From Bryobacterales bacterium (GTDB lineage: Bacteria; Acidobacteriota; Terriglobia; Bryobacterales; UBA6623): a stretch of DNA of 43,341 nt. Below are positions 2 through 6,619 of the stretch, in pieces. The stretch covers positions 1 to 43,341 of the forward strand of contig JAJDTX010000006.1 of assembly GCA_022826925.1 (NCBI GenBank), given 5' to 3'. How positions within the stretch are numbered: position 1 is the stretch's first letter; each line of letters opens with the position of its first letter. The position numbers and the translations under genes were made by a program. Below the pieces are notes generated by a model. The model made no database searches. It was not told the DNA's origin and saw only the letters and a program-made list of their open reading frames with translations.

Positions 2-472
2 CCATGCTTCCGCCACGGCAGCTTCCGCGCAAGTCGGCGCTGGGAAATCGGCGCTGGGAAATCGGCCCGTTCTGACGGACCTGTCGAAGGAGGAGAACGC
101 GCTACCGATCAGCCATCGATACCGCGCAGCGGTTTAGTTCAAGAGATCAATCGGCTCTTCAACATAAGCGGGATCCCGGCCGTGTGTACGCAGGTGTCGG
201 AGGAACAGAACGTAATCGATCACTTCCAAGTGGATTCCGAGAATGTGGCGGGAAGAGAACTGGCCGATTTCATCGACCGTTTCATCGAGCAGAGAAACTA
301 CATTGCCCACGCGGATACGTCGCTGTCTTCGGTGGGGGCGCAAGAAGTCTACAACCATATCGAAGCGTTTCGCGTATTCGCGGTCTCACTGTGCGTAGTC
401 TTGGAGCGGACATTCTCGCGAGTTGGGTGGACGGGTGAATCGGTCGAAGCGACGCATCGTGGCGCGGAATGA
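2..472 (+). CDS. HEPN-like domain protein (partial, 5' end outside window)
   Basis: Only the C-terminal part is visible. The last 96 residues, from a GTG at 182, are all-helical in character and contain the segment EQRNYIAHAD. The RNYIAH in it is the R-x4-H motif of HEPN RNase domains, and its setting resembles RiboL-PSP/MAE_28990-type HEPN proteins. The same frame stays open to the window edge, so the gene probably starts upstream. However, a 14-bp tandem repeat at 34-66 makes the frame before about position 130 uncertain: another frame also reads plausibly there until a stop near 135. It converges on the cysteine desulfurase with 11 bases between the two stops. HEPN proteins are often toxins or effectors in defence loci. 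Membership of the neighbouring sulfur cassette is inference only. Confidence 0.5.
   Translation, partial: PCFRHGSFRASRRWEIGAGKSARSDGPVEGGERATDQPSIPRSGLVQEINRLFNISGIPAVCTQVSEEQNVIDHFQVDSENVAGRELADFIDRFIEQRNYIAHADTSLSSVGAQEVYNHIEAFRVFAVSLCVVLERTFSRVGWTGESVEATHRGAE
34..66. repeat. 14-bp tandem repeat, about 2.4 copies
   Basis: The unit TCGGCGCTGGGAAA occurs at 34-47 and 48-61 and is followed by a partial third copy TCGGC. Fourteen is not a multiple of three, so gain or loss of a unit would change the reading frame of any gene crossing it. Confidence 0.8.
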
Positions 473-483
473 CTGCAGCCCGC

Positions 484-1665
484 TCAGCCGACACTCGCTC
501 TTGCCAATCGCCCGATTGGGGACGTGACTGAAAGCTGCCGTGCGGCCCTGCGGATGACATCGCCGGCGCTGCGAACTTCTTCCTCCGTTGTGAATCGACC
601 TACGCAGAACCGGAGCGAACTATCGGCCTCCGCCGGGGAGAGGCCATAGGCCAATAGCACAGGCGACGGCTCGGCGACCGTCGAAGCGCAGGCGGATCCG
701 GAAGAAGCTTGGATGCCTTCGAAGGCATCGAGCAGTTCGTCGCTGCCCGCGCCTGGGAAACGCACGTTGAAGGCTCCTGGCGCTCGGTGCCGCCGAGAAC
801 CGTTGAGCTGTGCTCGCGGAAACGCGGCAAAGATGGATTCGAGTAGTTCCTCGGCCAAACGCCCCATGCGCTCGGCATCGGCATGGACGTCCCTCGCCGC
901 CGCTCGACAAGCTTCACCGAAGCCGATGCATAGTGGAACCGGCAGCGTGCCGGGGCGGAGACCACCCTCTTGGCCGCCTCCCAATGTGAGTGGTCTTACG
1001 CGATTCCTAGCACGGTTGCCGACGTAAAGTGCACCAATCCCCTTGGGTCCATAGCACTTATGGGCCGACAGCGTCAGGAGGTCGGCACCGAGTTTGCGGA
1101 CGTCCAAGGGTAGTCGCCCCAAGGATTGCGCACAGTCGGAATGTAAAATCGCGCCTACGCGTTGGCAAATTTCGGCGATAGCGGGAATCTGCTGAATGAC
1201 CCCAGTCTCGTTGTTGACATGCATAACCGATACGAGGAGCGTTCGCTCGCCCACCGCTCGTTCGACCGAGTCGAGGTCGACAAGGCCATCTGATTGGACG
1301 GGCAGCGTCTGGACGTCAAAGTCCATTTCTCCCAGCGCCTGAGTCGGCTCTAAGACTGAACTGTGCTCGGTCCGCACTGTGACAATCCCGCGTCGGCCGG
1401 AGGAAGCCCGAGCGACTCCAAACATCGCCAAGTTGTTGGCCTCTGTCGCTCCCGATGTGAATACCAACCGGCGAGCGTCCCCGCCAATCGCCCGAGCTAC
1501 TTGACGTCGGGCCGTCTCTACCGCACGGGCAGCCCCGATGCCCGCTAGGTGGTTGGTAGAGTGGGGGTTGCCGTAGAGCCCCTCGTTGCGCGTCATTGCC
1601 GCCTTTACACGGGGGTCGATCGGGGTGGATGCTTGATGGTCGAGATAGATTGGGGCGTACGGCAT
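484..1665 (-). CDS. cysteine desulfurase (DndA/IscS-like, class V aminotransferase)
   Basis: This 393-residue PLP enzyme would strip sulfur from cysteine to form a persulfide for transfer. Visible features are the N-terminal YLDHQASTP, the GATEANN segment near 73, His101 in the EH pair, Asp177 and Gln180 around the cofactor, the PLP lysine Lys203 in SAHK, and the persulfide cysteine Cys326 in SSGSACAS. Length and motifs fit a full active IscS/DndA enzyme. It is the last gene of the minus-strand cassette: its ATG lies 4 bases after the TAA of the PAPS-reductase-like gene, so the two are almost certainly co-transcribed. The context argues for a dedicated DndA-like sulfur donor rather than housekeeping IscS, since no iscU, iscR, hscAB or sufBCD is near. 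Which nucleic acid or protein receives the sulfur cannot be read from the sequence. Confidence 0.94.
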   Translation of the reverse strand: MPYAPIYLDHQASTPIDPRVKAAMTRNEGLYGNPHSTNHLAGIGAARAVETARRQVARAIGGDARRLVFTSGATEANNLAMFGVARASSGRRGIVTVRTEHSSVLEPTQALGEMDFDVQTLPVQSDGLVDLDSVERAVGERTLLVSVMHVNNETGVIQQIPAIAEICQRVGAILHSDCAQSLGRLPLDVRKLGADLLTLSAHKCYGPKGIGALYVGNRARNRVRPLTLGGGQEGGLRPGTLPVPLCIGFGEACRAAARDVHADAERMGRLAEELLESIFAAFPRAQLNGSRRHRAPGAFNVRFPGAGSDELLDAFEGIQASSGSACASTVAEPSPVLLAYGLSPAEADSSLRFCVGRFTTEEEVRSAGDVIRRAARQLSVTSPIGRLARASVG

Positions 1666-1669
1666 GCGC

Positions 1670-3013
1670 TTAGTCCGTGCAGTCGCACGGCAACGCTGCC
1701 CGGCCGGAAAAGCCCGCTCGCGTGACTAATTCGTCCTCTTCCAACTCGCTCAAGTCACGGTAGTTCACGTCGGCGTCGACACCCCAGAAGCCAACGGTCA
1801 CCTTCTTGTGACTTCTCCGCCCCCGCCCCTTGTATCGCTTCAGCGGGCGACGCTCATAGCGAGTCTCAAGATCTGCCCACCAACGGATGTCTGATGGGGT
1901 GTCAGGTGTGCTCCTGAGCTTCTCGGGGAGGACGGCATCTACGGATGCTATATCGCGACGGACACTTGGAATCGCAGTAGTGCCCTTCATGAAGCAGTAG
2001 ACGCAGTTCGACAGATTGGTCTCGGGCGGCAGTCCTAGCTTCCAGTCGCGATCCGCCCAGAAGGCGAGAACCTCCTCGTTGCCGATGTCGGCGTCGGCAA
2101 GCGGTGTGCAGAGAATTTCGCCGTCAGTCATTTCTCGTTTCGCTCGCTCAGGATCATCCGGGCCAAGGCGGTTACGCGCCATGACGCGGGCGACCCGACG
2201 TGGCTCGTCGGCGCGCAGCCCAATCAGCGAAACGTACTCGGTCGAGTATTCGCCACTCATGGGGGCAAACTCGGGGTAGCCTCGCTCCGCGAAGACCCCA
2301 GAGGCCATGTGGCTCGCCCCGACCCGTGAGAAGTCAGCGAAGTTCTGCTTCGGCAGGGCTGGAGGTCGGGACCGCACGAAGGCCTTCTTGCGGAGCAGTT
2401 CGGTGTCGTCCATCTTGCCGCGCGAGCGTCGGTGCCTTGCGATCAAGGTACTATCCGTCAATTGCGGCTCTGGATAAAAATGTCCCCGCCTTTCGGTTGT
2501 CTCCTTGCCGGCAAACCACTCGGCTAGGAATTCATTAGTGGTTCGGAGCTTGAGGTGCGATGTGCAGATGCGTGTGTGGCGGCTTGGCAGGAAGCCTTGG
2601 TGGCTGACTAGTTCCTCAAAAACCTCGCCGCGCCATCGGTAGCCGGTAGGATTAGATTCAGAGAGTGGCTGATCGTTGACGAGTCGATAGCTGCCCCGCC
2701 TAGTCCACTCGCCGTTGTAGGCATCCTCATAGGTGGCATATTCAATCCAGAAGAACGGGATGCCGTGCTCGACTTCCGCGTACTGAGAGCATGCGCGCAC
2801 GAAATCGTATGTGGCGGGGTGTTCGGCTGAGGTGTTGTTGAAGACGATAACGTCGCCACGGTCCCGTAGCAGAAGGCCCTGCTCGAGCAGAAGCACCAGC
2901 ATCATGCCGCTTGACCGGCCACCCGAGAACCTGACGACATGCGGCAGCGACTCGTGCTCGGGAGCGTCGTACTCTAGGTCGAGGCTGAAGGCCTCGCTCG
3001 ATGCGACGTTCAT
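1670..3013 (-). CDS. PAPS-reductase/DndC-like ATP-pyrophosphatase
   Basis: The protein has 447 residues. The PP-loop SGGRSSG lies at 30-36, and the segment GLRADEPRRVAR near 265 is typical of PAPS-reductase-like proteins of phages and modification systems. Such enzymes adenylate a substrate before sulfur attack, as DndC does. Cysteines stand at 150 (ICTSHLK), 337 and 340 (NCVYC) and at the extreme C-terminus, 443 and 445 (PCDC); some could bind an Fe-S cluster as DndC does. The start is ATG 3013, whose ATGA overlaps the TGA of the upstream gene, with GGGAG about 6 bases before it. The open frame reaches 3169, but that extension lies inside the upstream gene and is not needed. No cysB/cysH-type assimilation genes are nearby, so sulfate assimilation is unlikely. 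Confidence 0.9.
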   Translation of the reverse strand: MNVASSEAFSLDLEYDAPEHESLPHVVRFSGGRSSGMMLVLLLEQGLLLRDRGDVIVFNNTSAEHPATYDFVRACSQYAEVEHGIPFFWIEYATYEDAYNGEWTRRGSYRLVNDQPLSESNPTGYRWRGEVFEELVSHQGFLPSRHTRICTSHLKLRTTNEFLAEWFAGKETTERRGHFYPEPQLTDSTLIARHRRSRGKMDDTELLRKKAFVRSRPPALPKQNFADFSRVGASHMASGVFAERGYPEFAPMSGEYSTEYVSLIGLRADEPRRVARVMARNRLGPDDPERAKREMTDGEILCTPLADADIGNEEVLAFWADRDWKLGLPPETNLSNCVYCFMKGTTAIPSVRRDIASVDAVLPEKLRSTPDTPSDIRWWADLETRYERRPLKRYKGRGRRSHKKVTVGFWGVDADVNYRDLSELEEDELVTRAGFSGRAALPCDCTD

Positions 3014-3882
3014 GACGGCTCCCTCGAACCCAAGAACTGCTCCGCGACTAGTCTTCTTACATAGTCGGGTCCGAGTGCGCCGAGCGCTTGGACCGTCGTT
3101 CTGCGACCTAACCAGCCTAGCACATCCTTGACTTCCCGGCTCGTGTTTCCAGCACCGTCGGCTAGGCACTGCACGACGGCTGGCCGTACGGCACTATCGC
3201 CGATCACAGTCAGCTTTGAAACCATCGCCTCGACCAGCGCCTCCCACCGGAACCGAGGCCTTAGTGCAGCGGAGAGGTCCTCAACTGAATGGCGGCCGAA
3301 GCAATTGTAGGCTTCGGTGGCGTAGCGGTTCCGCCACCAAGCCCTGCCTAGGGGACAGTCTAGGAAGGACGTCCGGTTGGCGCGCGCCTCGATGACGCCC
3401 CCGAGGCGGCGGAGGATGGTGCGCACGCACTCGTCCACAAGCTGTGCATCGTCGCCATTGAGCGCCTGGGCAATGCGCCCCCTGCCTGACTCGCCGTTAC
3501 CGCTCGCGGCGAGGTAAGAGCTCTTGATCAGACCCTGCTCGATCATCTCAATGTGGATGCGCGTCCAAGTCTCGGGACGGGCGGCGAGACTTACGGGGAT
3601 GCCCGCCCATGTCACTGCAATTTCACGTTCGGTGGACCATGGCGGATCCACAAGCTCTCGTTCACTGAGAGGATTGCCCGTGACCGGAGGCGGCTTGCCC
3701 TGCCGCAGACCCCATGCCTTCACGAAGTCGCAAAACTCTGTCTCGTCTTCTGCGGCGAGACGGAGGAATTCGCGCTGCTTTTGACCACCGCGTGCACCGC
3801 TGCTGATCTTGGGCAGGAGATCCTTCTGAGCCCGTTCAAGGCTGGGGCGGTCAATGGTCTCAACACGCATAGAATCAGTCAT
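3010..3882 (-). CDS. uncharacterised protein of the sulfur/GHKL cassette (gene 3)
   Basis: This 290-residue soluble protein is one I cannot assign with confidence. The start is ATG 3882, which overlaps the end of the upstream gene by 8 bases, and its TGA overlaps the next ATG, so it is translationally coupled on both sides. Features are a conserved-looking central stretch with WAGIPVSLA, HIEMIEQGLI, a segment rich in Arg and Leu around TILRRLGG, and FLDCPLGRAWWRNR. There is no signal peptide, transmembrane segment or nuclease motif that I can see. I have only a vague impression of similarity to small DUF-type proteins that sit in defence loci (possibly DUF6339-like), which is unverified. Its position between a GHKL ATPase and a DndC-like enzyme suggests a structural or specificity subunit, by inference only. 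Confidence 0.8.
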   Translation of the reverse strand: MTDSMRVETIDRPSLERAQKDLLPKISSGARGGQKQREFLRLAAEDETEFCDFVKAWGLRQGKPPPVTGNPLSERELVDPPWSTEREIAVTWAGIPVSLAARPETWTRIHIEMIEQGLIKSSYLAASGNGESGRGRIAQALNGDDAQLVDECVRTILRRLGGVIEARANRTSFLDCPLGRAWWRNRYATEAYNCFGRHSVEDLSAALRPRFRWEALVEAMVSKLTVIGDSAVRPAVVQCLADGAGNTSREVKDVLGWLGRRTTVQALGALGPDYVRRLVAEQFLGSREPS

Positions 3883-4690
3883 CCGGGTGGACAGCGAATT
3901 TGAGAGGCCTGAGGCGGCTCGCGACTTCGTCGGGACGGAAAGCTTCGTCTTCCCAAGTGCCGAGCCCATTCTTTAGGAGCTGGCCATGCAATGCACGCAG
4001 CACAGGGAACTCGCGCCAGCCATCTCCCCCGCCGAAATCGGCGCGAAGCAGCTCGAGTGCTCGCGCAAGGCAGCCGGTGAGAATCGAGTCGCGATGACGA
4101 TCAATATCGGGGTTGATCATCCACGCAAAGAGATCCGGATGCATCTGGACGATGAAGTGGAAACCTTCGCCTGTGTTCGTCTCTACCCGGTAAGCGCCCA
4201 CGGGGAGCATGTCATTAGCGACGAGACGGATCAGGCTCTCCATCGTGGAAGTAGTGCGCCAGAACTGGTCCTGAGCGAGGATGGTGCCGGGGGCCACGGA
4301 AATCTCGACGTCCTTCCAGAGGTCATGCACACCGTGCTGATCGTTCAACCTGATGGAAAGAGTCCCGTCCGGCACTGCGATTACCAAGGGGCGCACGTAA
4401 ACAGGTGGAACGACCTCCTCGGCCTCCCAAGAAACCTCTTGCATCAGAACGGTCTCGCGGCGCGGACCGGCCCTGCAGATTTGCCGGTATGTGGCGTAGG
4501 GCGATGAGACCTCAGTGGCGAACTCCGCCTTGCCACACTCGAGAAGGCTCGCGACCAGATTGCGTCCTTCGACCGCGTGGCGAATGGCCATGCCACTGCC
4601 ATTTTGGGCGCGTGAGATGACCGCGTCGTAGGTGCCACTCACATAGTCCATTCGATCTTGGGCTAGTAGCGGATAATTGCCGTTCTGCAC
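3875..4690 (-). CDS. uncharacterised protein of the sulfur/GHKL cassette (gene 4)
   Basis: This 271-residue soluble protein is not recognised. The start is GTG 4690, three bases after the TGA of the GHKL ATPase gene, with GGAG about 8 bases upstream inside that gene. The N-terminal half is probably mixed alpha/beta (EVVPPVYVRPLVIAVP, LSIRLND). The C-terminal half has helical and acidic stretches and a distinctive run FHFIVQMHPDLFAWMINPD, then GWREFPVLRALHGQLLKNG. I see no signal peptide, no transmembrane helix and no cysteine cluster. Coupled translation with the ATPase upstream and with gene 3 downstream indicates fixed stoichiometry with a complex. A partner of the GHKL ATPase is the simplest guess. 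Confidence 0.8.
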   Translation of the reverse strand: MQNGNYPLLAQDRMDYVSGTYDAVISRAQNGSGMAIRHAVEGRNLVASLLECGKAEFATEVSSPYATYRQICRAGPRRETVLMQEVSWEAEEVVPPVYVRPLVIAVPDGTLSIRLNDQHGVHDLWKDVEISVAPGTILAQDQFWRTTSTMESLIRLVANDMLPVGAYRVETNTGEGFHFIVQMHPDLFAWMINPDIDRHRDSILTGCLARALELLRADFGGGDGWREFPVLRALHGQLLKNGLGTWEDEAFRPDEVASRLRPLKFAVHPDD

Positions 4691-4693
4691 TGG

Positions 4694-6619
4694 TCAGTCT
4701 CCTCGACTGGCGGCGGCTCGGCGAACCAGTTCGACGCGGAGGTCGCCCGTGGAGTTCGCGAGCCCACAGGGCAACCAGATTTCGAGTTCCTCACCGGCCG
4801 AAGAAACGGGGCCGATGAGCACTCCGCACTTCCTGCCTTCTTGATCGGCTACATAGCCCTTAACCGGATTGCCGCCGATGGTTGCTCCCTCGGTGATCTC
4901 GAGGAATTGGTCCGGCTCGGGACTATCGCACGTCTCGTCTGACCCATTGCAGACCACAACGCGGAGTTCCGCATTGACGGCGTCGCTGAGCGGTTTGGCG
5001 CGCAGGCGAAGCCCACGAGTGCGGCGGACGGTGGTGACGCGCACATCGATGCGCCGACCTTGGCGGCGGAGCCGCGGTCGAGGATTCGGGGTGGGATTAC
5101 GATCCCGGGACGGATTTGTCGAGAGGGGCTCAGGCTTCGGTGCCCGTTCGGGCGTACCTTGGTCGGCCGTCCCGGCACGTGGGTTACTGCGTACTCCACC
5201 GCCTGTTACCTCGACTGAGAAGAATCCGGGATCGTGCTCCTTCGCGTGGATCCTCGGCACGAGCGCGAGGATCTTGTCGTGGAGCTCTTTGAGGAAAGCA
5301 TCTAAGGCCCGACGGTCAGCCGACCCGCGCTGCTGCCGGGTAAGGTCGATGTCGATGTGCCTAGGACCCTCGAATAAGCCTACCAAGCGGCAGGCTTCCT
5401 TCGCCTGTAAAGGTTCTAACATTACCACGCCGTTGAAGGGGATCACGTCCCGGTAGTCGGACGCTCGGTTATGCGGTATGTCATTGGTTATCCACATGCC
5501 GTTTCGGAAGAACTGTAGGTGAGTGCCACCGCCGTCAGGGGGCAACTCCCGGAAATGGAACCTCACAGTACCCGCATCGGTCTCGATCTTGTGGCCGTAC
5601 TTGGCCTTCAGTGTCTGGAGTGTGTGCCAGGCTTGGCGTCCACTTGGCCCGATGGAGTTTCGGTCGCGTCGTTCGCGTTGCTTACGGCGAGCGAGAACGC
5701 CGGCCAAAGTACCGGCGTCCATGGCTTTCTCTTCGCCAGCAGGAGTACGGAGCACGACCGCCATGCGACCATCGCGGATTGCGGGAGTGAAATGGGTTCC
5801 GATCACAGTCTCCACGATGTCGAGCACCTCGTCGTCGCTCTTGTAGCGGTTGAACCTGTTGAAGCCCAGCACGCCGACGACGGATCCCGTCTTGAACTCC
5901 TGCTCGATCCAGTCGAGCTTTTCCTTCAGTAAAGGAATGGCAGATCCGTCGTAAAAGTCGAATCGGTCGAAGAGCTTGTCTGGTCGAACCGTCCTAGCAA
6001 GGTAGCCATCCTCCCCCAACACCTTTTGCCCGTAGACATGGGTCGCGAGGATCGTGTGGCCAGATACGGTCCGCCCATTGTGGTGAACACCCCCGTAGAG
6101 GATATAGCGGGGATCTGAAGCCGGGAACGACGTCATGTGGCCGTTGCCGTACGAACCCGCGGTTGACTCGTCAGCCTTGCCACTCTGGCCATCGCCTAGC
6201 AGATCCTCCATTCCCTGCGCATCTAAACCTTTGCCGTTGTCCAGCACCCAGAGGACCGGTATGCGGTTCTCGTCGATGGCGGCTTTCATGGCGTCGACAA
6301 TAGCTCTGGACTGCGCTAAGTTACGCTTCTGGCGTTGTGTGTCAATGGCGCACCGGAGGTGGTCGCGGTACTGGTCGAGGGCGGGGACATCCGAAGTCTT
6401 GACCTCATCGACCTCGACGACTACACGGACCACATCTCGGCTTACCGCCATCGCCGCGTCGAGCGCGTTCTGAACCAGTTCCCGTATGACCGTGTGTGGG
6501 TCGACGTTGTTATACGTCGACAGGCCTGTCGAACGGAAACCGGAAATCTTTGCCGCGTGAAGGAACTTTAGTTCCGTGCGTTCGCGTCGCGACAACCTAG
6601 CCCTAGCCGAATTAAACAA
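4694..6619 (-). CDS. GHKL-type ATPase (Hsp90/MutL/MORC-like ATP-binding protein)
   Basis: This 641-residue protein is the first gene of the cassette. The Bergerat ATP-binding fold is clear: N-box RELVQNALDAA (Glu47, Asn51), G1 box DNGKG (127-131), and G2-like lid GSYGNGH (155-161). Residues from about 170 to 440 probably form the transducer region. A proline/arginine-rich linker follows (about 465-520), then a C-terminal domain with strand-like segments (LRVVVCNG, LEIWLPCG). Such ATPases dimerise on ATP and act as clamps or chaperones; MORC-like members occur in bacterial conflict systems. The start is TTG 6619, chosen because a strong GGGAGG sits 7 bases before it and conserved sequence begins soon after. 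The gene is separated by 106 bases from the aldehyde dehydrogenase upstream. Base composition looks less GC-rich than the genes after 6726. Confidence 0.9.
   Translation of the reverse strand: MFNSARARLSRRERTELKFLHAAKISGFRSTGLSTYNNVDPHTVIRELVQNALDAAMAVSRDVVRVVVEVDEVKTSDVPALDQYRDHLRCAIDTQRQKRNLAQSRAIVDAMKAAIDENRIPVLWVLDNGKGLDAQGMEDLLGDGQSGKADESTAGSYGNGHMTSFPASDPRYILYGGVHHNGRTVSGHTILATHVYGQKVLGEDGYLARTVRPDKLFDRFDFYDGSAIPLLKEKLDWIEQEFKTGSVVGVLGFNRFNRYKSDDEVLDIVETVIGTHFTPAIRDGRMAVVLRTPAGEEKAMDAGTLAGVLARRKQRERRDRNSIGPSGRQAWHTLQTLKAKYGHKIETDAGTVRFHFRELPPDGGGTHLQFFRNGMWITNDIPHNRASDYRDVIPFNGVVMLEPLQAKEACRLVGLFEGPRHIDIDLTRQQRGSADRRALDAFLKELHDKILALVPRIHAKEHDPGFFSVEVTGGGVRSNPRAGTADQGTPERAPKPEPLSTNPSRDRNPTPNPRPRLRRQGRRIDVRVTTVRRTRGLRLRAKPLSDAVNAELRVVVCNGSDETCDSPEPDQFLEITEGATIGGNPVKGYVADQEGRKCGVLIGPVSSAGEELEIWLPCGLANSTGDLRVELVRRAAASRGD

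Follow-up and report, generated by a model that had tools for sequence, protein, structure and literature searches.

A conserved bacterial gene cluster joins a sulfur-transfer pair to a GHKL ATPase module: a candidate DNA phosphorothioation system

The window, the whole stretch of 43,341 nt that was analysed, is the entire contig C153 of a Bryobacterales genome, the sequence to the left of its first base lying outside view. ORF calls placed five adjoining genes on its minus strand between positions 484 and 6619, encoding a GHKL ATPase, two proteins called A and B here, a PAPS-reductase-type PP-loop enzyme and a cysteine desulfurase (Table 1). Measurement of the junctions agreed with the initial annotation, which had described genes that overlap or lie no more than 4 bases apart: a 3-base gap separates the GHKL gene from A, A and B overlap by 8 bases, B and the PP-loop gene by 4, and a 4-base gap precedes the desulfurase gene. 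The start of the PP-loop gene was set at 3013, the ATG where aligned close relatives begin (the longest ORF starts at 3169), and that of B was taken as 3882, not 3969. The strong ribosome-binding site claimed for each gene was only partly borne out, as inspection upstream of all five revealed a Shine–Dalgarno-like site before three (GHKL, A and the PP-loop gene) and none before B or the desulfurase.

Table 1. The five genes of the cluster, with positions in the window.
Gene product	Position	Strand	Description
GHKL ATPase	4694..6619	-	641 aa, TTG start codon; predicted DNA clamp driven by ATP
Protein A	3875..4690	-	271 aa, GTG start; predicted N-terminal beta-sandwich, helices C-terminal
Protein B	3010..3882	-	290 aa; all-helical model; DUF6339 is a distant relative
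PP-loop (PAPS-reductase-type) enzyme	1670..3013	-	447 aa; predicted sulfur activation and transfer
Cysteine desulfurase	484..1665	-	393 aa; IscS/SspA/DndA type

The GHKL protein gave sub-threshold matches to HATPase_c_3 in Pfam (0.015) and to a sacsin-type model in NCBIfam (7.5e-7) and matched PDC-M33A in PADLOC (9e-17), and its profile gave weak matches in the PDB to a heat shock protein (3ied) and to MORC3. Across 43 aligned sequences, E47, N51, D54, D127/G129/G131 and G155/G158/G160 were invariant, residues that we take to be the E/N/D, DxGxG and G-rich third motifs of the ATP site; judged by its sequence, the protein has the ATP-site motifs of GHKL ATPases. Protein A matched PDC-M33B in PADLOC (1.9e-7). 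The all-helical AlphaFold2 model of protein B had a pLDDT of 94.9, and comparison with PDB folds gave no convincing match. In PADLOC, protein B did not match M33C, its kinship to DUF6339-type proteins emerging by profile–profile comparison only (hhalign 93.8%, E = 2e-7). Profile searches of Pfam, PADLOC and NCBIfam returned no nuclease family for GHKL, A or B.

The desulfurase matched PF00266 in Pfam (3e-73) as well as SspA and DndA in PADLOC (2e-129 and 1e-127), and its C326 never varied across an alignment of 24 sequences that contained the window's own. It fell below the cut-offs of the best 25 of the 46 NCBIfam models that it matched, and scored 346 bits against TIGR03235, the DndA equivalog, for which the cut-off is 480. 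In known Dnd systems, DndA can be replaced by IscS. The PP-loop protein matched PF01507 below threshold (0.032), and its PADLOC matches were short or weak (SspD, 1.3e-8 across 34 residues only; BrxP, 0.0023; DndC, 0.036). Invariant in 31 aligned sequences, again including the window's, were SGGR, RxCT (C150), NCxxC (C337, C340) and a C-terminal CxC (C443, C445). The protein was nearest to phage-type PAPS proteins (99.5%), compared with an hhalign probability of 8% (E = 0.004) for DndC. The same genome carries a separate canonical dndABCDE on contig C86, where its sole match to the DndC model TIGR03183 lies; the window's PP-loop protein did not match this NCBIfam model at E up to 1 and showed no BLASTP similarity to the DndC of its own genome. 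We therefore rejected it as a DndC orthologue, and its earlier description as DndC-like fails in the strict sense.

A scan for related loci returned at least 80, of which nine were excluded as having only phage-like PAPS genes, leaving 71 for analysis. The PP-loop gene was accompanied by at least one of GHKL, A and B at 65 of them, and all four occurred together at 55, on a single strand and in the order GHKL-A-B; B was present at 58 and the desulfurase at 35. This synteny upholds the proposal of a conserved cluster in which a sulfur-transfer pair is joined to a GHKL ATPase and the uncharacterised A and B. Because the four-gene set is adjacent in dozens of distantly related bacteria, the arrangement exceeds chance. 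Its distribution is patchy (3 of 297 genomes in a sample of one phylum, the source genome counted). At two loci (L064 and L065), a single PP-loop gene is flanked by two GHKL-A-B sets, which at L064 are 28–33% identical, as if one PP-loop enzyme served two specificities. DUF4007 was undetected in 36 of the 52 cluster-bearing genomes, and neither canonical DndC nor DUF4007/SspB was found in 27 of the 52 (mostly incomplete genomes), which suggests that the cluster needs neither.

Genes associated with DNA phosphorothioation (PT) or with the sensing of PT, namely DndB, the TIGR04096-type methyltransferase, PbeA, DUF262-HNH and sulfur-binding-domain HNH, adjoin 26 of the 65 loci and were absent from 15 control loci; no such partner was seen in the window or at 39 of the 65 loci, many of them cut by contig ends. 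The initial annotation had listed DndB and other known components as missing, which holds within the window, but some relatives are flanked by DndB-family, PbeA and DUF262-HNH genes and the genome itself has dndABCDE. DndB lies beside the cluster at four loci above the Pfam cut-off and at a fifth below it. Seven loci adjoin the family of TIGR04096, named 'DNA phosphorothioation-associated putative methyltransferase', an identity assigned through the copy behind dndE in the source genome, which is 53% identical to the cluster-side member at L044. PbeA was found at six loci (a representative at 526 bits, the others by HMM).

DUF262-HNH enzymes adjoin 14 of the 65 relatives, and in the 10 that were aligned DGQQR (D85-R89) and H450/H451/N470/N479 are invariant, in agreement with the motifs of SspE/DndI. 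All 10 have F before QR, where Y is reported for PT-sensing SspE/DndI, the position being equated with the PT-sensing residue by spacing only. In a PDB profile search, the top match was 7p9k, which we take to be BrxU, and SspE/DndI was not returned. Counting DUF262-HNH and PbeA-type helicase modules together, 20 of the 65 relatives have one or the other beside them. HNH nucleases with a sulfur-binding-domain-like part lie near five loci. Studied members of this group cut PT-DNA, and PMC7461809 (available part) argues that such nucleases should keep out of PT hosts whose specificity matches theirs.

Relatives of the GHKL-A-B trio were also found apart from sulfur genes. hhalign connected GHKL, A and B to the PDC-M33 and plasmid trios at 99.9%, 99.1% and 93.8%, and the gene order is alike. 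The PDC-M33 example that we found (L108) adjoins a cytosine (C5) methylase, and five of seven plasmid regions with GHKL-A-DUF6339 trios have N6, adenine or C5 methyltransferases and restriction genes nearby. With distant kin in the neighbourhood of DNA methyltransferases, GHKL-A-B has the look of a module that acts on DNA and can be exchanged, joined here to sulfur chemistry. These neighbourhoods, along with the PT-linked genes, agree with the suggested tie to DNA modification or restriction. The description of the system as new needs qualifying, as kin of GHKL and A are already the PADLOC candidate PDC-M33, although the example of it lies next to a methylase and not to sulfur genes. A limited literature search found no paper naming PDC-M33 or DUF6339.

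On balance, the cluster probably marks the DNA of its own cell with sulfur, the predicted mark being a phosphorothioate in the backbone, and GHKL-A-B would take the role of DndD/DndE or SspC/SspB. The desulfurase would take sulfur off cysteine and hand it on as a persulfide, and the PP-loop enzyme would adenylate the target phosphate and put sulfur in the place of an oxygen. GHKL-A-B is predicted to scan and load DNA: ATP binding would close the GHKL protein on DNA and ATP hydrolysis would reset the clamp, while A and B may help in site choice. Separate and exchangeable readers of the DUF262-HNH or PbeA type would attack DNA without the mark, and unmarked phage DNA is predicted to be treated as foreign. 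That the PP-loop gene is found near-constantly with GHKL-A-B and the readers vary is expected if GHKL-A-B aids writing. Against the PT reading, which we favour by a little, stand the distance of the PP-loop protein from DndC, the 39 loci with no PT-linked partner, the F of the DUF262 enzymes at the position equated by spacing with the reported Y, their 7p9k match, and the sulfur-binding-domain HNH nucleases near five loci.

A different division of labour, which strikes us as possible but doubtful, would leave marking to the PP-loop enzyme and desulfurase alone and make GHKL-A-B the restriction or response arm, a MORC/paraMORC-like module that would recognise DNA lacking the mark and act on it. 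Restriction may be the role of GHKL-A-B because the methyltransferases near its relatives, at L108 and in the plasmid regions with their restriction genes, need no such helper to write. GHKL, A and B also diverge faster than the PP-loop enzyme (median identity 0.28, 0.24 and 0.26 versus 0.43), and GHKL ATPases of R-M loci have been proposed to loop DNA (available text of PMC2292703). However, the three proteins match no nuclease family, and Dnd/Ssp-type writers are generally known to use an ATPase and a DNA-binding partner, as the available text of PMC10853773 also indicates. Known PT restriction arms are, moreover, loosely coupled to their writers, the accessible literature giving 33% of Dnd cases for DndFGH and 42.1% for PbeAC with dndCD, whereas the coupling here is near-complete (65 of 71).

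We consider it improbable that sulfur enters a DNA base or nucleotide instead of the backbone, which would leave the self/non-self logic unchanged. PP-loop enzymes also thiolate bases, and this one is closer to phage-type PAPS proteins than to DndC, but the families of the linked partners (TIGR04096, DndB and PbeA) take their names from backbone PT. Desulfurases of the IscS type and PP-loop enzymes also work in tRNA thiolation; that the cluster is a plain operon for tRNA thiolation or cofactor sulfur next to an unrelated GHKL protein is nevertheless very improbable, given the near-complete linkage to GHKL-A-B, the patchy distribution and the DNA-acting neighbours, and the cluster proteins matched no tRNA-modification family in Pfam, PADLOC or NCBIfam. 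The dndABCDE on contig C86 might mark the DNA of this genome while the cluster is a remnant or is silent, a reading that we consider very improbable as well: its five frames are open and retain the residues invariant among relatives, and the cluster is present in the 27 genomes where neither DndC nor DUF4007 was found.

Returning to the PT reading, we propose tentatively, as plausible but short of probable, that GHKL-A-B is a portable DNA-mark engine for 5-methylcytosine, N6-methyladenine and sulfur, and that its sulfur form is what lies in the window, a new PT class of many phyla, frequent in animal-symbiont genomes, with a GHKL clamp replacing the ABC or ORC/Cdc6-type ATPase. If true, GHKL would join the two known PT engines, in which DndE works with an ABC ATPase and SspB with an ATPase of the ORC/Cdc6 type (PMC10853773, available text), linking PT chemistry to MORC/MutL/Hsp90 ATPases, and the DNA-acting core would be separable from the mark it handles. 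The compact four-gene cluster would permit a direct test of site choice. In sponge metagenomes, PT genes are enriched yet 'not functionally complete' (accessible part of PMC5099237), and one cause may be a PT class that has escaped recognition.

With Dnd (DndABCDE, with DndFGH, DndI or PbeABCD), the cluster shares a cysteine desulfurase, a PP-loop enzyme, an ATPase and further partners, and DndB, TIGR04096-type and PbeA genes adjoin some of its relatives; its PP-loop protein, however, is not DndC, and neither DndD (an ABC ATPase) nor DndE was among the Pfam, PADLOC and NCBIfam matches listed for the five proteins. Likeness to Ssp (SspABCD with SspE or SspFGH) and BREX type 4 lies in the SspA-like desulfurase, the short SspD and weak BrxP similarity, and the SspE-like layout of the DUF262-HNH enzymes beside 14 of the 65 relatives. 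None of the five proteins matched SspB (DUF4007), SspC/BrxC or PglZ in Pfam or PADLOC, and PF13182 (DUF4007/SspB) had no match across the source genome (93% complete). Membership tests on DndC, DndD/DndE, SspB/DUF4007, SspC/BrxC and PglZ thus exclude the cluster from Dnd, Ssp and BREX-4, and its predicted ATP-driven machine appears to be absent from the known sulfur-marking systems checked. The MORC/paraMORC GHKL ATPases likewise occur in R-M neighbourhoods, often with cytosine methylases, in the available text of PMC2292703, which contains neither 'Dnd' nor 'PAPS'; the five-gene cluster differs in having no helicase or RE-fold nuclease. PDC-M33 and the plasmid trios are homologous to it across the three genes of GHKL-A-B, which keep the same order, but the modification enzymes seen in their vicinity are methyltransferases and not enzymes of sulfur chemistry.

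The window, which is the entire contig C153 of a 5.97-Mb genome (196 contigs, estimated 93% complete), carries all five of the joined minus-strand genes reported in the initial annotation, with junctions of a 3-base gap, an 8-base overlap, a 4-base overlap and a 4-base gap. The source is probably a Bryobacterales relative: the window encodes a QueA with 93% identity to one labelled Bryobacterales, and only one hit, at 96%, is closer. Of the strong ribosome sites ascribed to these genes, Shine–Dalgarno-like sites were present at three and absent at the other two. Convergent with the desulfurase gene, an open frame encodes the C-terminal end of a RiboL-PSP-type HEPN protein; a close relative has a full 252-aa homologue at this position (PF18735, 2.3e-10).

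Coordinates of the cluster and of features in related loci
Feature	Record	Position	Strand
Five-gene cluster	Window	484-6619	-
B, refined start	Window	3882	-
PP-loop gene, refined start	Window	3013	-
HEPN open frame off contig start	Window	2-472	+
Full HEPN homologue	L002	12555-13310	-
~700-aa protein	L061	16229-18340	
One PP-loop gene between two GHKL-A-B sets	L064	6102-15059	
One PP-loop gene between two GHKL-A-B sets	L065	433-9179	
ISL3-family transposase gene	L019	12548-13801	
dndE, dndD, dndC, dndB, divergent dndA, TIGR04096 methyltransferase	L111 (contig C86, same genome as window)	60024-67956	

The desulfurase is of the IscS/SspA/DndA type, below cut-offs among the NCBIfam models listed. 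The PP-loop protein matches PF01507 below threshold, SspD over a short stretch, and BrxP and DndC weakly. SGGR, RxCT, NCxxC and a C-terminal CxC are invariant in 31 aligned sequences including the window's, a set that could accommodate a metal or an Fe-S site. Its earlier description as DndC-like was not upheld, and we rejected DndC as its identity: no BLASTP similarity to the same genome's DndC was found, and hhalign gave only 8% (E 0.004). Phage-type PAPS proteins scored 99.5% (E 4e-22), a match covering eight of nine such proteins (L073-L081; Acinetobacter, Xenorhabdus, Mixta) from phage-like settings, which have the NCxxC core in common with the window's enzyme. The ATP-site motifs of the GHKL protein are kept, being invariant in 43 aligned sequences. 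Neither A nor B has a Pfam family above cut-off; their confident AlphaFold2 models (A, beta-sandwich plus helices, pLDDT 91.7; B, all helical, pLDDT 94.9) have no convincing match in the PDB.

A search for a joint conserved neighbourhood bore out the grouping. Scanning with a 31-sequence profile yielded at least 80 loci, and all counts are among the loci listed. We set aside L073-L081: these have a PAPS-type gene of 278-311 aa (lying, in L073, within a 1099-aa frame) but none of the other four cluster genes, and their surroundings of small genes look phage-like. Among the remaining 71, GHKL was present in 62, A in 57, B in 58 and desulfurase in 35; the PP-loop gene accompanied at least one of GHKL, A and B in 65 and all three in 55. 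It stood without them in six (L010, L011, L042, L060, L070, L072), some of these lying at the end of a contig. In all 55 four-core loci the genes lie on a single strand. The commonest order is PAPS-desulfurase-GHKL-A-B (21 loci), followed by GHKL-A-B-PAPS and PAPS-GHKL-A-B (12 each) and by the window's own order, GHKL-A-B-PAPS-desulfurase (7); two loci have a GHKL-A-B set on each side of a single PAPS gene, and one reads PAPS-GHKL-A-B-desulfurase. The double sets are in Acidimicrobiaceae/Acidimicrobiia records, and those of L064 are 28-33% identical to each other. Distance matrices of the core proteins agree (r 0.88-0.95, a level reached by 0 of 999 permutations; computed on 47 loci whose copies are full-length, without L064 and L065), with shared ancestry contributing. 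Median identity is higher for the PP-loop enzyme (0.43) than for GHKL (0.28), B (0.26) and A (0.24). By record titles the loci span many phyla and include animal symbionts (Bathymodiolus symbionts, Spongiihabitans, Entotheonella); many other bins with the cluster are presumably from sponges. The cluster is rare, found in 3 of 297 genomes of a phylum sample, own genome included, by a rule (PDC-M33A match, high GHKL-profile score, adjoining PP-loop gene) whose weak PDC-M33A model may miss some. A transposase gene between desulfurase and GHKL in one locus (L019) indicates that the cluster can be interrupted.

At least one neighbour class linked to DNA phosphorothioation (PT) occurs in 26 of the 65 listed loci, or 25 when HNH nucleases with a sulfur-binding-domain-like part are not counted; both tallies exclude short pieces found in L031 and L069 as well as the divergent DUF262 protein of L027. 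None of these classes was found in 15 control loci (nine phage-type PAPS, six GHKL-relative; 262 kb, not taxon-matched). DndB (PF14072) flanks L046, L033, L023 and L058 above cut-off and L069 below it; for background, 23 of 149 phylum genomes carry a PF14072 match that passes the cut-off. PbeA flanks six loci (representative 526 bits, family by HMM). Directly before this helicase gene, all six (L061, L025, L031, L034, L044, L058) encode a ~700-aa protein, with sigma-70 region 4 and RNA-polymerase alpha-CTD-like parts in L061. A ~500-aa family beside seven loci is assigned by homology to TIGR04096 ('DNA phosphorothioation-associated putative methyltransferase') through the copy behind dndE in the window's genome (612 bits, cut-off 150; 53% identity to the L044 member). 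DUF262-HNH proteins, with 7p9k, which we take to be BrxU, as best PDB match, lie beside 14 loci, several between desulfurase and GHKL. DGQQR and HNH residues are invariant in the ten aligned, an arrangement described for both SspE and DndI (PMC13251355, PMC11662687); at the position of the PT-sensing Y reported for SspE/DndI, matched by spacing only, they carry F. The window's genome has seven DUF262 (GmrSD_N) matches (C165, C41, C140, C172, C106, C15, C59) and none on C153; three of these proteins are at most weakly like the relatives' neighbours (27 bits, 12 bits, no match). HNH nucleases lie near five loci, and the N-terminal part of the one examined resembles the sulfur-binding domain of ScoMcrA and relatives (5zmm, 3.7e-10; 7cc9, 3.8e-10). 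This class is double-edged as a PT link, since such enzymes cut PT-DNA; PMC7461809 found fewer than 3.6% of them near dnd genes.

We give slightly better than an even chance to the reading that the cluster would write a predicted PT mark in DNA, with GHKL-A-B as scanning engine. GHKL-A-B is assigned to the writer because the PP-loop gene is so rarely without it, while reader genes vary. The strongest rival, which we consider rather improbable, makes GHKL-A-B a restriction arm, because the methylases near its relatives need no such helper. In PADLOC, relatives of GHKL and of A are entered as components A and B of the candidate PDC-M33. A Nitrospina genome with a sulfur-type cluster (L029) has a second locus (L108) where GHKL (two frames), A and B lie directly behind a C5 cytosine methylase (9e-64), with PDC-M33B (5e-52) and PDC-M33C (4e-38) matches and no PP-loop gene within 18 kb. 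GHKL-A-DUF6339 trios occur on Ligilactobacillus, Lactococcus and Planococcus plasmids (16 records matched, seven regions examined), joined to the cluster by profile comparison (GHKL 1e-36, A 2e-18, B 2e-7; Pfam assigns the Planococcus B to DUF6339, 1e-49). A DNA methyltransferase lies close by in five regions: of N6 type in three from Ligilactobacillus, of adenine type in one from Lactococcus and of C5 type in that from Planococcus. For two further Lactococcus regions (L122, and L117, which the end of its record truncates) an incomplete gene table lists none. GHKL ATPases are also known from R-M loci (PMC2292703).

INDEPENDENCE from known systems, the cluster of the preferred PT-writing reading shares its genome with canonical dndBCDE and dndA, all above NCBIfam cut-offs. 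Across 52 cluster genomes, mostly MAGs (they account for 50 of the 65 core loci, one genome holding two of these, and also comprise G000, the window's own, G126 and G024), DndC is above cut-off in 13, DUF4007 (the SspB family) is in 16 and either is in 25; the other 27 include one (G331) with a split sub-threshold DndC. With DndC in 8 of 149 phylum genomes, own genome included, canonical Dnd is commoner in cluster genomes than in that sample, which is not habitat-matched. A search of open-access papers found none that links GHKL to phosphorothioation, to DndC or to cysteine desulfurase, and none on PDC-M33 or DUF6339; neither PMC10853773 nor PMC12839542 has 'GHKL' in its main text. PMC10853773 describes a CxC-type ABC ATPase-DndE core that pairs also with cytosine methylases, a close parallel to GHKL-A-B, both being seen with methylases.
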